NCBI GenBank assembly: GCA_013214965.1
Contig: JABSRU010000034.1
Location: 1-47,824 of the forward strand
Origin: Gammaproteobacteria bacterium
GTDB taxonomy: Bacteria; Pseudomonadota; Gammaproteobacteria; Enterobacterales; Psychrobiaceae
Length of the DNA: 47,824 nucleotides
Direction: 5' to 3'
Shown here piece by piece: positions 18,809 to 25,458 of this stretch (position 1 is its first letter; each line of letters opens with the position of its first letter). A model generated the notes under the pieces. That model was given only the letters and a program-made list of their open reading frames with translations, ran no database searches and was not told where the DNA came from. The translations under genes and the position numbers were made by a program.

Positions 18809-20740
18809 TTAGCTAACGATAAATTCCATCGCCACTTCGTTACAATCATAATCGGCAGGACAGCCGTCATAATCTTTAAGCACTTGATCAGGTAAGCTGG
18901 CGCTGGCCACTTCATTAAAACCAAATTGATTAAACAGCTCTGGCGATTTAGTCAGTACAATCACTTGTGCAACCCCTAATTCACTCGCTTTCGCCAACAT
19001 ATGATCAATCAGTCCTTTGGTGTGCTCAAAATATTCTCCGGTATCAATCCCTAACGAACGGATTTCAGCTAAACCGGTACCATAAATATATAATGACGCA
19101 CAACCCACCATTTTTTCTTGTTCATCTTCAGCGACGGAGAAGTCCAATATACTATTTAAGACATCAAAACGACTACGGGGTAAGATCTCACCTTTTTGTG
19201 AACAGCCCTCAAGAATAGCCGTGATACTATCGACATCTGATAATTTAGCCGGTCTGATATTCATTAGCATGGCTTTGTGTGCATTCAAACGCTGTTGGAC
19301 ATTTCCCATCGCATTTTTCACTTGACCATCGGCAGTGCCACCAACAACCTCAGGCGAGGTAAACTCATCACCCACACCACGCTGTCTATCTAATGCTGAC
19401 ATCACACTCGATAACGATGTACCACCTAACACTTCACGTTTAGCTAAACATGCATCAATGGTTAAATGCTGATAAACATCCGCTTCAATCACTGATGAGA
19501 AGATTTTCAGCTGTTCTAAAGTAAAATCTTCTAGTGGTAGTTGTTCAGCAATTGCAGCAACCACTACCTCTCCAACAATATGATGTGCTTCTCTAAATGG
19601 AATATCTTTTGATACGAGATAATCAGCCAGTTCAGTCGAGTTAGCATAACCCTGTTGCGCAGCCGCTAGCATTTGAGGCTTATTGGTTTGCAATCCTTCC
19701 AATACCAGAGCAGCCATCGATAAACAGTCCCCCCAATTATCTAGTGCATCAAATAATCCTTCTTTATCTTCTTGCATGTCCTTATTGTAGGCTAAAGGCA
19801 GTGCTTTTAATGTCATCATCATGGCACTAAGCGAGCCAAATACTCGGCCAGTTTTGCCACGAATAAGTTCGAGTGCATCTGGATTTTTTTTCTGCGGCAT
19901 CAACGAAGAGCCCGAAGTCACATTATCAGCTAACTCGATAAACCCTGCTTCGCCGGAATTAAAGAAAATTAAATCTTCAGCCATCCGCGATAAATGCATC
20001 ATCGAAATGCTAGCGTCAGATAACAGCTCCAACACATGATCGCGATCCGACACTGAATCAAGGCTATTTAATGTCGCCTGTTTAAAGCCTAAATCTCGGG
20101 CTAAGGCATGGCGATCGATCGGATAAGCCGTGCCGGCCAATGCGCCAGAACCTAATGGGCAGCGATCTAAACGCGCTGCGGTGTCACGCATTCGACTCAA
20201 ATCACGATCGAACATTTCAACGTAGGCCAAACACCAATGACCAAAACTAATCGGCTGAGCTCGTTGTAAGTGAGTATAACCAGGCATCACAGTATCTTGT
20301 TCACGAATAGCTAAATCTAGCAGTGCCTGCTGTAATTTAACCATAAGTTCACTCAACTCAACGGCTTGCTCTTTACACCATAATTTTAAATCAGTGGCAA
20401 CTTGGTCATTTCGACTACGCCCAGTGTGAAGTTTTTTACCGAGATCACCCACTTTGTCGATGAGTTGCATTTCGACCCAACTATGAATATCTTCGGCATC
20501 GCTTTGCAATATTTTCTCTGGATTGTTAACTACTAACTCCCCTAACTCATTCAATGCCGCTTCCAGTTCTTGCTGCTCACTTGCAGTCAAAACATTCACT
20601 TGCAACAAGGCACGAGACCAACTAATTGAACCAATAATATCTTGTTTTGCTAAACGATAATCAAATCTTAATGAATCATTAAATGATTTAAACCGTTGAT
20701 CTGCTGGTTGTGAAAAACGTCCACCCCATAAAGCTGCCAT
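18809..20740 (-). CDS. argH: Fused argininosuccinate lyase / N-acetylglutamate synthase (ArgHA)
   Basis: A 643-residue fusion. Residues 1 to about 460 are argininosuccinate lyase: [28 protein letters not shown] and the signature [12 protein letters not shown]. About residues 490-640 are a GNAT acetyltransferase resembling the acetyl-transfer part of ArgA ([13 protein letters not shown], then [13 protein letters not shown]). The fusion is known from Moritella, Vibrio and relatives, where it supplies both the first and the last step of arginine synthesis. It is the last gene of argCBFH(A), 20 bp after argF. Confidence 0.95.
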
Positions 20741-20760: not shown

Positions 20761-21675
20761 TTAACTTAATAAACTAATCATTACTGCATTTTGTGCATGC
20801 ATTCTATTTTCTGCTTGCGTTAACACCAGCGAGTTTTGGCCATCAAAAACATCTTGAGTTACTTCCTGTCCAATATGGGCAGGCTGGCAATGCATAAAGT
20901 AACCATCACCTAAAGATGTCATCAATTGCCGATTAACCTGATAGGGCAAGAATTTTTCTTTTATCTCATCATAATTTATCGCATCACCCATTGAGATCCA
21001 AGTATCAGTGTAGACCGCATCGGCCCCTTTTGCTGCTGATAGCTCCGTCGAGAGTAATAACGAACCACCGTGAGATTTTGCCAACGCTTGGGTATCTTGC
21101 ACTACCTTACCATCGGGGAAGTGTCCCTCAGGACAGATCACCACCATTTCAACGCCAGCCAATGCCGCAGCAATCATCAATGAATGGGTCACATTATTAC
21201 CATCACCAATATAAACTAATTTAATTAGACTCAAATCGTCAAATTGCTCGGCTAGGGCTAAAAAATCGGCTAATGCCTGACAAGGATGATACATATCACT
21301 CAATGAGTTGATCACCGGCACCGAGCCAAATTCAGCTAAATCTTCCACCGTTTTATGGCTAAAAGTACGTGCCACTATACCATCGGCCCAACAAGAAATG
21401 TTTTTGGCAAAATCAGCCACTGACTCACGCTTACCTAACGCACCATTATTTTGATCCAAATAAACACTATGGCCGCCAAGCTTAGCGATACCAATATCGA
21501 AACTAACACGGGTTCGCAGCGATGGTTTTTCATATAAAGTCACCAAACTTTTGCCAACCAATGCCTGATTAAATTTTTCTGGGGTTGTTTTAACTTGTTT
21601 AGCTAACTCAATTAATCCTAAAAATTGCGCTTGGGTTAAATCCTTTAGGGTTAAGAAATGTGAAATTTTATCCAT
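20761..21675 (-). CDS. argF: Ornithine carbamoyltransferase
   Basis: A 304-residue enzyme making citrulline from ornithine and carbamoyl phosphate. SLRTRVSF binds carbamoyl phosphate, HPCQALAD is the second phosphate-site motif, and DTWISMG contacts ornithine. The usual HCLP ornithine motif reads HCQPAH, with Gln for Leu. I recall this in related short ArgF proteins but cannot confirm it here. It lies 19 bp after argB. Confidence 0.93.
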   Translation of the reverse strand: MDKISHFLTLKDLTQAQFLGLIELAKQVKTTPEKFNQALVGKSLVTLYEKPSLRTRVSFDIGIAKLGGHSVYLDQNNGALGKRESVADFAKNISCWADGIVARTFSHKTVEDLAEFGSVPVINSLSDMYHPCQALADFLALAEQFDDLSLIKLVYIGDGNNVTHSLMIAAALAGVEMVVICPEGHFPDGKVVQDTQALAKSHGGSLLLSTELSAAKGADAVYTDTWISMGDAINYDEIKEKFLPYQVNRQLMTSLGDGYFMHCQPAHIGQEVTQDVFDGQNSLVLTQAENRMHAQNAVMISLLS

Positions 21676-21694: not shown

Positions 21695-22471
21695 TTAATT
21701 TGGCTCAATTAAGGTGCCACATTTTTTACCATTGATCAGTGCGATTAATTGCTCGGGTTGCTGCCAACTGGCGATCACAATGGAATCATTAAGTTCATTT
21801 GCCGTTGCGAATGCCGCTTCAACTTTCACTTTCATGCCACCGTCAATCACCCCACTTGCCATTAATTCTAGGGCATATTGTTGATTAAGCTGATTAATTA
21901 GCTGCTTATTTCCATCTAACACCCCGGCAACGTCAGATAACAACACTAGTTTCCCTTGGAGCAGCTGAGCGATTTGTTGCGCCGCCTGATCAGCATTAAC
22001 ATTGAGCAGCTCACCGTTACTGTCACAAGCTATCGAACTAATAATCGGTAAATAATCCTTAGCCATCAAAATCGTTAGCAAGGTATTTTCTAGCGGTAAA
22101 CATTGACCGACCTGTCCAAGCTCAGGACTCACCTGACTAGCACTAACCATATCACCATCGCCTAAACTTAAGCCAACCGCATTTAACTGATTAGCCTTAG
22201 CTCTAGCGACTAGCTTTTTATTAGCCGCACCGGCAAGCGCGCCCGTCACTAATTCTATTTGATCCGGTGGTGTGATCCGTAAACCATCGAGTTTTTCACT
22301 CTTAAAACCCGCTTGATTTAGCCAGCTTTCCACTAAGCAACCGCCGCCGTGAACTAAAACAATTGACACTCCCTGCTGCTTAATTTGAGCAATAACCCCA
22401 AATAGCTGATTTTGGGCCTCAATAGATTCCAATAGTGCCCCACCAACTTTAATAATCAAAGGTTGTCTCAT
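21695..22471 (-). CDS. argB: Acetylglutamate kinase
   Basis: A 258-residue amino-acid kinase phosphorylating N-acetylglutamate. IIKVGGALLES and VHGGGCLVESWL bind ATP and substrate, LLSDVAGVLDG is the phosphate-site loop, and GVIDGGMKVKVEAA holds the catalytic lysine region. The open frame extends 13 codons upstream into argC. ATG 22471 is chosen because GGAG lies 8 nt before it and it matches the family start. It starts 5 bp after the argC stop and its SD lies within the argC end. Confidence 0.95.
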   Translation of the reverse strand: MRQPLIIKVGGALLESIEAQNQLFGVIAQIKQQGVSIVLVHGGGCLVESWLNQAGFKSEKLDGLRITPPDQIELVTGALAGAANKKLVARAKANQLNAVGLSLGDGDMVSASQVSPELGQVGQCLPLENTLLTILMAKDYLPIISSIACDSNGELLNVNADQAAQQIAQLLQGKLVLLSDVAGVLDGNKQLINQLNQQYALELMASGVIDGGMKVKVEAAFATANELNDSIVIASWQQPEQLIALINGKKCGTLIEPN

Positions 22472-22476
22472 CGCAA

Positions 22477-23475
22477 TCACTCCTTTAAACCAAAATGAAT
22501 GAGTAGACACTGTAACCCTTGAGCCGCAGCTCCTTTAAGTAGATTATCAATCGCTGCAACCACCACCAAATGATGACTGATTGGATCAAATTGCCACGCA
22601 ATATCACAAAAGGGGGTGCCCGCCACCTGATCGATCTTAGGCCAACCGGTTTTACGCATTCTGACCATCGGTTGATTGTCATAAACGCCATAGGCTTGGT
22701 TGATCATTTGTTCTGTAACATCGGGATTGAGCTTGACGGTGATCGTCGCCAAAATACCGCGCTTAAAATTACCTAAATGCGGCGTAAAAATGACTGGCGC
22801 ACCCAATTGGGTTGAAATTTCAGGTTGATGGCGATGCCCTAACACCCCATAGGGCGTTAAACTCACTTCACAAAAACTATTGACCATCGATGCTTTACGG
22901 CCAGCTCCAGTAACACCACTGACCGCGTTAATGACTGGCCACTGATTAGAGTCGAGCAAATGATTATGCTGTAATGGTTTTAATGCCAACAACGACGCAG
23001 TTGGATAACAGCCAGGTACTGCAATTAGTTTGCTTTGTTTAATCGCCGCTTCATTCCACTCCGCCAAACCATAAACAGCTTCGGTCAATAACTGTGGATA
23101 TTGATGTTCAAAACCATAAAATTGGCTAATATATTTAGGATCGCTAAATCGATAAGCACCCGATAAATCAAATACTGACAAACCAGCGCGATAAAAATCG
23201 GCGGCCAATTGATGACTAACTTCGTGACTCGTCGCTAATACAACGCCATCACAGGACTGTTTAATCTCAGTAATTGCCGTTGATGACAATCCTTGAAGTT
23301 GGTAATTTAATACCCCACTATACTGAGGGTATAATTCACAAAGTGGTTTATTTTTATCTTCACTGCCCTCGGAAACATAGATCCCAGAGACAGTTAATAG
23401 AGGATGACGCTCAACCAACAGACACATTTCAGCACCTGTGTAGCCGCTAGCTCCAATAATGGCAATATTGATCAT
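22477..23475 (-). CDS. argC: N-acetyl-gamma-glutamyl-phosphate reductase
   Basis: A 332-residue NADPH enzyme and first structural gene of the arg operon. [19 protein letters not shown] is the dinucleotide fold, [10 protein letters not shown] carries the catalytic Cys, and HRHQPEI contributes the active-site His. No clear SD precedes the ATG (upstream bases GAATCCTTATCT), which is unusual beside argB. The 5' leader contains a candidate Arg-rich leader peptide and terminator, described separately. Confidence 0.96.
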
Positions 23476-23521: not shown

Positions 23522-23564
23522 AAAAAAGCCGACGAACAATAGGGACTACACCTATCGTCGTCGC
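23522..23564 (-). terminator. Candidate attenuator hairpin in the argC leader
   Basis: On the transcribed strand, GCGACGACGATAGG pairs with CCTATTGTTCGTCGGC across a loop of about 7 nt. There is a small internal loop and one bulge, and six T follow (23522-23527). It lies 46 bp upstream of argC in the untranslated leader, so it would stop transcription before the structural genes. Its 5' arm is exactly the last three Arg codons and stop codon of the upstream leader ORF. Confidence 0.75.
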
Positions 23565-23602
23565 AAAGGTCTTACATGATATGAAGAGATGTATTGGGTC
23601 AT
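23552..23602 (-). CDS. Candidate arginine leader peptide (attenuator peptide)
   Basis: A 16-codon [19 protein letters not shown], with four Arg in its last six residues (codons AGA, CGA, CGA, CGA) and stop TAG inside the terminator's 5' arm. Only a weak purine-rich SD (AGAAAAG, 5-6 nt before ATG) is present. A ribosome waiting at the CGA codons for charged tRNA-Arg would cover 23551-23564 and prevent the hairpin. Rapid translation and release would allow it. This matches the logic of his, leu and trp leader peptides. No expression evidence is available, and I do not know a described arg counterpart. Confidence 0.7.
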
Positions 23603-23650
23603 TTGCACTTTTCTGAAAATAAGAATTAAGGCAAAATTGCCAACAAGTCC

Positions 23651-23679
23651 AATATAACCACATTAAAATATTTATGCAA
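23651..23679 (-). promoter_or_regulatory. Candidate argC operon promoter
   Basis: Minus-strand -10 TATATT (23651-23656) and -35-like TTGCAT (23674-23679) are separated by 17 bp. Transcription would begin near 23645. A short GGCAA/TTGCC hairpin (23633-23644) lies at the very 5' end of the transcript, and the leader ATG follows about 40 nt downstream. The -35 overlaps an ArgR-like box. Confidence 0.6.
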
Positions 23680-23699
23680 CAAAAATGCATAAGTATTGA
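23665..23699. promoter_or_regulatory. Pair of ArgR (ARG) boxes
   Basis: Two matches to TGNAT-N4-ATNCA occur: TGCATAAATATTTT (minus strand, 23665-23678) and TGCATAAGTATTGA (plus strand, 23686-23699). Their centres are 21 bp apart, the spacing expected for two 18-bp ARG boxes with a 3-bp gap bound by an ArgR hexamer. The proximal box overlaps the -35, consistent with repression. Each box has one to two mismatches in its less conserved arm. Confidence 0.65.

Positions 23700-23726: not shown

Positions 23727-25458
<1,732 letters not shown>

Follow-up and report, generated by a model that had tools for sequence, protein, structure and literature searches.

The window, a 47,824-nucleotide stretch of contig JABSRU010000034.1 from the genome of a marine gammaproteobacterium of the family Psychrobiaceae (assembly GCA_013214965.1), carries argC, argB, argF and argH as consecutive genes, all transcribed from the minus strand. 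Pfam domains identify each of the four and support the argCBFH(A) operon named in a preliminary description of this DNA. The ArgH protein of 643 amino acids has a C-terminal extension in which no Pfam domain was detected at E ≤ 0.001, and which we take to be an ArgA-like part. An ArgH(A) fusion is reported for marine gammaproteobacteria in the available text of an earlier study (PMC1382215), and the extension of the window's ArgH looks alike. The argG gene of the same genome lies on another contig (C66), outside the arg operon. By eye, an ARG-box-like sequence is present upstream of argG (locus L172, 2022–2350, minus strand), and no leader with adjacent arginines (RR leader) was seen there, the only candidate being a 10-codon ORF (MRYLGKHRLA, then stop) with two single Arg codons.

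Between the promoter and argC lies a short leader. Read on the minus strand from the −10 element, it runs GGTTATATTGGACTTGTTGGCAATTTTGCC ... GTGCAAATG ... CCTTTGCGACGACGATAGGTGTAGTCCCTATTGTTCGTCGGCTTTTTTC ... ATGATC, and it comprises, together with the operon, the following features:

18809–20740, minus strand: argH(A), 643 amino acids, Pfam Lyase_1 and ASL_C2
20761–21675, minus strand: argF, Pfam OTCace
21695–22471, minus strand: argB, Pfam AA_kinase, start placed at an internal ATG
22477–23475, minus strand: argC, first gene of the operon, Pfam semialdehyde dehydrogenase
23522–23527, minus strand: U6 tract of the putative intrinsic terminator, read from the sequence
23530–23543, minus strand: 3′ arm of the terminator hairpin, with one bulged U; its distal half co-varies with the 5′ arm
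23551–23563, minus strand: 5′ arm of the terminator hairpin, formed by the Arg codons, the stop codon and one further nucleotide
23563–23555, minus strand: three CGA Arg codons (codons 14–16), which are candidates for the regulatory codons and make up the base of the terminator 5′ arm
23602–23552, minus strand: leader ORF of 16 codons, between the promoter and argC
23630–23643, minus strand: 5′ UTR element TTGGCAATTTTGCC, able to pair with the leader start-codon region (23583–23611)
23651–23656, minus strand: probable −10 element TATATT
23661–23692, minus strand: putative ArgR operator (ARG box) TATGCATTTTTGTTGCATAAATATTTTAATG, overlapping the promoter, assigned by eye

Coordinates and translation confirm the 16-codon ORF ending in CGA CGA CGA TAG that had been described in the argC leader, with its ATG at 23602–23600 and its TAG at 23554–23552. 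For comparison we used the window's genome and eight congeneric species, obtained from a search of 58 genomes; all nine have a −10 element of the form TATA[TC]T, located 44–48 nt from the leader ATG. Transcription is predicted to start near 23644, which would give a leader RNA of about 120 nt. The operator assignment relies on resemblance to the ARG-box consensus; by eye, a similar palindromic sequence lies upstream in all nine species. No clear Shine–Dalgarno sequence was seen by eye in the 20 nt 5′ of the leader ATG in the Psychrobiaceae leaders. A duplex between TTGGCAATTTTGCC and the start-codon region is possible in all nine (−6.4 to −16.8 kcal/mol), and co-variation in this stem was not significant (p = 0.09 with n = 9; p = 0.25 with seven representatives). 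This stem may act as a pause hairpin, or may mask the start codon and limit leader translation.

The hairpin downstream has a stem of 13 bp, in which 23563–23551 pairs with 23543–23530 and one U of the 3′ arm is bulged. The preliminary description had placed a hairpin followed by six U 46 bp before argC, and the coordinates agree, the gap between U6 and the argC ATG at 23475 being 46 nt; its 5′ arm (23551–23564) was correct in containing the Arg codons and one base too long. The isolated hairpin has a folding energy of −17.6 kcal/mol, compared with a mean of −7.9 for shuffled sequences (0.2% of 500 shuffles did as well), and it also appears in a longer fold; the energy of the whole leader is ordinary relative to shuffles (z = −0.95). 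The terminator scanner did not return this hairpin for the window, probably because the scanner allows no bulge. The immediate upstream neighbor, at 23727, is divergently oriented, and upstream on the minus strand no gene ends closer than 24535, approximately 1 kb distant, so the hairpin is unlikely to terminate another gene.

The leader recurs among the Psychrobiaceae. A 16-codon ORF occurs at a similar position upstream of argC in all nine species, with codons 14–16 reading CGA CGA CGA (RRR, then stop) in eight and CGA CAA CGA (RQR, then stop) in L007, and with a stop codon that is TAA in six and TAG in three. The distance from the stop codon to 8 nt beyond the stem is 26–31 nt throughout. 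The hairpin is better than 97.6–100% of 500 shuffles in eight species; in L007 it is no better than chance (29% of shuffles as good), so that the lost Arg codon and the lost sound hairpin coincide in this species. At least five T are present in the 8-nt tail after the stem in eight species, and L002 has three. Joint conservation of the Arg run and hairpin in relatives, the check proposed at the outset, therefore largely held: hairpin and U-tract are both sound in seven of the nine (window included), L002 lacking the U-tract and L007 failing. Codons 2–13 of the leader show little constraint at the protein level (pS 0.50, pN 0.39).

The distal stem arms differ among species, and each pairs better with its own partner than with the arms of other species (−5.1 vs −3.2 kcal/mol; permutation p = 0.0024 with n = 9 and p = 0.003 with seven representatives, in a test that was designed with the sequences already in view and with hand-set arm boundaries). 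Over the whole arms the difference between cognate and non-cognate pairing is small (−17.2 vs −15.1). RNAalifold, applied to a MAFFT alignment of the nine leaders, recovered five core pairs only and zero compensatory changes, because the core pairs hardly vary, the Arg codons being invariant except at codon 15 of L007, and because MAFFT appears to mis-register the distal arms.

We consider it very likely that this leader is a ribosome-mediated transcription attenuator of argCBFH(A) that senses arginyl-tRNA and operates alongside ArgR. This reading draws on anatomy, conservation, in-frame codons, stem co-variation and footprint geometry, all of them from sequence, and from these we infer leader translation, termination at U6 and the response to arginine. 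Polymerase would start near 23644 and a ribosome would begin the 16-codon leader. With arginine plentiful, the ribosome would read the three CGA codons, reach the stop and leave; the freed CGACGACGAUAGG would then pair with CCUAUUGUUCGUCG, and transcription would end at U6. With arginyl-tRNA scarce, the ribosome would wait on the CGA codons and cover the 5′ arm, and polymerase would proceed into argC. If the leader were untranslated, or if the ribosome stalled before approximately codon 9 for want of another amino acid, the terminator would form. No antiterminator would be required. Read-through upon starvation, as modeled here, is the right sign for a biosynthetic operon.

Constrained folding of the nine Psychrobiaceae leaders, with a 30-nt ribosome footprint set on each codon in turn, is consistent with this scheme. 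With the P-site at codons 1–8, pairing of the terminator core was the same as in the ribosome-free RNA in all nine leaders; at codons 9–10 it was weaker, at codon 11 no more than 1.6 core pairs were expected to form, and at codons 12–17 pairing was zero. The dependence of terminator formation on ribosome position is thus a folding result. It suggests that a ribosome waiting at codons 14–16 would remove the terminator by sitting on it, in line with the original proposal that the stalled ribosome masks the arm directly. Because an early stall or a lack of translation leaves the terminator intact, read-through would be specific to slow reading of the last codons; and since the arm would equally be hidden by a ribosome parked on the stop codon, termination would need fast release.

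A leader can also sense general translation speed or ribosome–polymerase coupling, as in pyrBI, and here CGA-CGA plus the stop codon would then impose a fixed delay rather than report on arginine. The footprint indeed covers the arm at any of codons 11–17, and in the available text on a Salmonella his-leader assay CGA is read slowly even without starvation (PMC4046918). This account is nevertheless unlikely, given that adjacent Arg codons are kept before an arginine gene, argC, while the other residues drift, and that the exact motif CGACGACGATAR occurs in the window's genome at this site only. A classical terminator/antiterminator attenuator whose antiterminator we missed is also quite improbable. 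With the ribosome at codon 13, mean upstream pairing of the freed 3′ arm ranged from 0.00 to 0.71; it reached 0.42–0.71 in five of the nine species, and in some Alteromonadaceae-type relatives the leader is followed by a distinct, strong terminator, both of which would suit such a design. In the other four species, however, pairing was 0–0.05, and masking of the arm would make an antiterminator unnecessary. Folding found no upstream partner consistent across the nine Psychrobiaceae, and because the predicted partners differ among species a separate antiterminator is not supported, as had been anticipated from the window. Arm masking by a ribosome waiting for arginyl-tRNA is the preferred reading.

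To survey the leader more broadly, we scored ATG ORFs that lie within 240 nt upstream of argC, are no longer than 50 codons and contain CGA-CGA in frame. The regions came from four samples: 30 loci (argC in 48 of 58 genomes), 60 regions hand-chosen among the matches listed (argC in 268 of 295 genomes of the order), 30 Alteromonadaceae-type loci taken from the 58 genomes of that family in which argC was present, and 19 of the 46 reference loci L031–L076 (L077–L110 lay outside the scan). Six of the 139 regions are duplicates, which were removed in the frame test and the recount and kept in the shuffle comparison. The “-type” family labels were inferred from reference records that share the leader or the argC start. 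A CGA-CGA leader was found in 8 of 9 Psychrobiaceae, 22 of 24 Shewanella-type, 20 of 30 Alteromonadaceae-type, 10 of 11 f2 and 4 of 4 f13 regions, and in 8 of 12 distinct Aeromonadaceae-type regions (10 of 14 where duplicates are kept). It was also found in one of two f11 regions and in one of six in a mixed set of Colwellia, Idiomarina, Pseudoalteromonas and f26 (Pseudoalteromonas, MKIMRR then stop). For the first six groups, dinucleotide shuffles expect 0.01–0.07 such leaders per group, a statistic that ignores the kinship of species. The leader was absent from all Enterobacteriaceae-type (0/6), Vibrio-type (0/5), f10 (0/5), f12 plus Psychromonas (0/7), f20 (0/5), f3 (0/3) and f9 (0/2) regions. 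Ten of the 46 loci L031–L076 have one; among the 27 of these outside the sample, 26 have none and the leader of L031 duplicates that of L003. Outside the order we took 29 loci and set aside five with cut flanks (wrong registration); none of the 24 correctly registered loci had a CGA-CGA leader, and three had RR ORFs with other codons.

A chance ORF was rejected on the strength of this recurrence, which extends to all nine Psychrobiaceae, together with the shuffles. The distribution indicates that the system is not local to the window's operon, whose leader is one version of a type present in several families. A covariance model search with Infernal, under stricter filters, across 58 genomes returned the nine Psychrobiaceae argC leaders on which the model was trained and none in the other 49 genomes. 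One extra weak match (G001, E = 0.068) was dropped, as it lies antisense inside a 239-aa ORF. In the f2 locus L026 the first CGA of the pair is TGA, and the leader ends early.

The CGA-CGA pair appears to be conserved as codons. In 133 distinct argC upstream regions we counted 78 CGACGA hexamers (runs counted once), of which 76 are in frame in a short ATG ORF, compared with 4 and 10 in the frames shifted by one and two. CGACGA is therefore read as codons, and an RNA motif was rejected on this frame test. The choice among synonymous codons is also narrow, as 76 of 81 leaders with adjacent arginines use CGA-CGA. CGA accounts for 100 of 621 Arg codons (16%) in the 35 ORFs of the window, so an explanation by codon rarity was rejected; only one CGA-CGA pair occurs in the 13,828 codons of these ORFs. 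In the available text of the Salmonella his-leader study, every Arg codon except AGG showed its strongest de-attenuation when paired with CGA (PMC4046918). By analogy, the preference for CGA is most likely due to slow reading that is sensitive to tRNA charging, and the tandem has probably been kept because slow codons would make a sensitive sensor.

Arrest peptides that bind small molecules have been described elsewhere in biology, and a nascent leader peptide that binds arginine or ornithine and arrests the ribosome would accord with the position of the last Arg, which immediately precedes the stop codon in 43 of the 81 RR leaders. We regard this as very unlikely: beyond Arg-Arg, the residues and lengths of the peptides vary widely between families, and a ribosome arrested by the end product would increase expression while arginine is abundant, opposite to what a biosynthetic operon needs. 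Least probable of all is that the leader terminator is constitutive, or belongs to a small-RNA gene, and that the ORF overlaps it by chance. The stem of such an element would need CGACGACG in any frame, but the hexamers keep to one frame, and CGA-CGA leaders persist in Shewanella-type genomes, in which the Arg codons seldom lie in a stem.

A terminator-like hairpin on the Arg codons was found in 3 of 50 CGA-CGA leaders outside the Psychrobiaceae, all of them weak (a count that excludes the later-found L186), so the output step elsewhere must usually differ; the Shewanella-type contributes one weak stem among 22 leaders. L186, an Alteromonadaceae-type locus, has MTNIHTDFMSTAPVPLRRRTLH followed by a stop codon, approximately 77–48 nt before argC, with GCGACGACGA...TCGTCGC and eight T. 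It has the same codon-in-terminator design with an unrelated peptide, which is possibly convergent. In 16 of the 30 Alteromonadaceae-type loci, a looser search identified an RR leader together with a hairpin that resembles a terminator and has a T-run. Of the 22 RR leaders in this search, two (L185 and L201), with codons other than CGA-CGA, are probably fortuitous; L184 and L185 have their terminators far upstream, and some hairpins are long and loose. In L198, L202 and L160 (f7) and in L049 (Alteromonas marina), RR leaders of more than 40 codons are followed by a strong long terminator, CACTTTTTACC...GGTAAAAAGTG plus T7, just before argC.

A recognized intrinsic terminator was mostly absent from Shewanella- and Aeromonas-type regions in the strict scan (2 of 21 in f6, one of these without a leader, and 3 of 10 in f25). 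Rho, translation or a structure missed by the scan may serve in these groups. Several other structures were noted here. The Shewanella-type loci L126–L128 have a GGGC..GCCC hairpin and, a few bases on, a T-run, absent from the strict scan; in L010, L112, L114, L119, L121 and L123, also Shewanella-type, a hairpin begins at or just after the leader stop, mostly without a T-run, and the base of some of these stems includes the stop codon (ATAG with CTAT). In the Aeromonas-type loci L050, L144 and L145, GCCCC, GGGGC and CCCC after the leader could form alternative hairpins.

On balance, we think it probable that arginine attenuation of argC is an old and overlooked layer of regulation in a large part of the order, in which the CGA-CGA sensor was kept and the output repeatedly rebuilt: with the Arg codons in the terminator in Psychrobiaceae and L186, with a separate terminator in Alteromonas and its kin, and with other outputs in Shewanella and Aeromonas. 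Given the strict use of CGA, such leaders would sense the charging of one tRNA-Arg isoacceptor rather than arginine as such.

The his, trp, leu, thr, phe and ilv attenuators of gammaproteobacteria likewise combine a short leader ORF, whose codons correspond to the end product, with an intrinsic terminator upstream of the first gene; the argC leader differs in its amino acid, arginine, in that its codons form the terminator arm, and in that no antiterminator common to the nine species was found. The precedent for regulatory codons that overlap a terminator is the actinobacterial ilvB leaders, which concern branched-chain amino acids in another phylum; the accessible part of that report gives no arginine element in Actinobacteria and describes the exact mode of ilvB as unclear, codon substitution being without effect in S. 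coelicolor (PMC1262725). The argC leader fits this codon-in-terminator type, with Arg codons inside the stem and then poly-U, as does L186. The Salmonella speF leader orf34 shares two consecutive Arg codons and arginine-dependent expression; as presented in the portion of the source available, it differs in acting on ornithine decarboxylase through Rho, RNase G and ribosome-binding-site masking, in its AGG-CGG codons, and in that no intrinsic terminator was found (PMC6386406). The argC leader falls outside that class, its downstream gene being argC and not ornithine decarboxylase. In Rhodobacterales, uORFC-8-2 upstream of cysS is a proposed leader with cognate codons in which stalling would give read-through, and it differs in concerning cysteine and a tRNA synthetase gene in Alphaproteobacteria (PMC8632094, from the text available).

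Rfam covariance models applied to 16 loci gave three weak matches below gathering scores (SraC_RyeA twice and Histone3) and no leader family. A survey of 16 Shewanella genomes lists, in its available text, six attenuators (branched-chain, His, Thr, Trp and Phe) and places arginine biosynthesis under ArgR (PMC3223726), and the main text of a Shewanella cis-RNA screen, as far as available, does not name argC (PMC2659441). The earlier remark that no arg attenuator of this kind was known in gammaproteobacteria agrees with the open-access papers searched, in whose available texts none was found. The attenuator proposed here would accordingly belong to a known ribosome-mediated class, and what appears to be new is an arginine sensor in which the codons double as the terminator arm.

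The minimal design, in which sensor codons and terminator arm coincide, would make an easily tested and portable regulatory part, and the near-absolute use of CGA-CGA makes synonymous-codon choice in these leaders directly testable. Published accounts place arginine synthesis in gammaproteobacteria under ArgR control, and attenuator surveys, in the texts available, omit arginine. If the reading proposed here is true, a second, tRNA-based layer in several families would alter the picture of this model pathway, Shewanella included.
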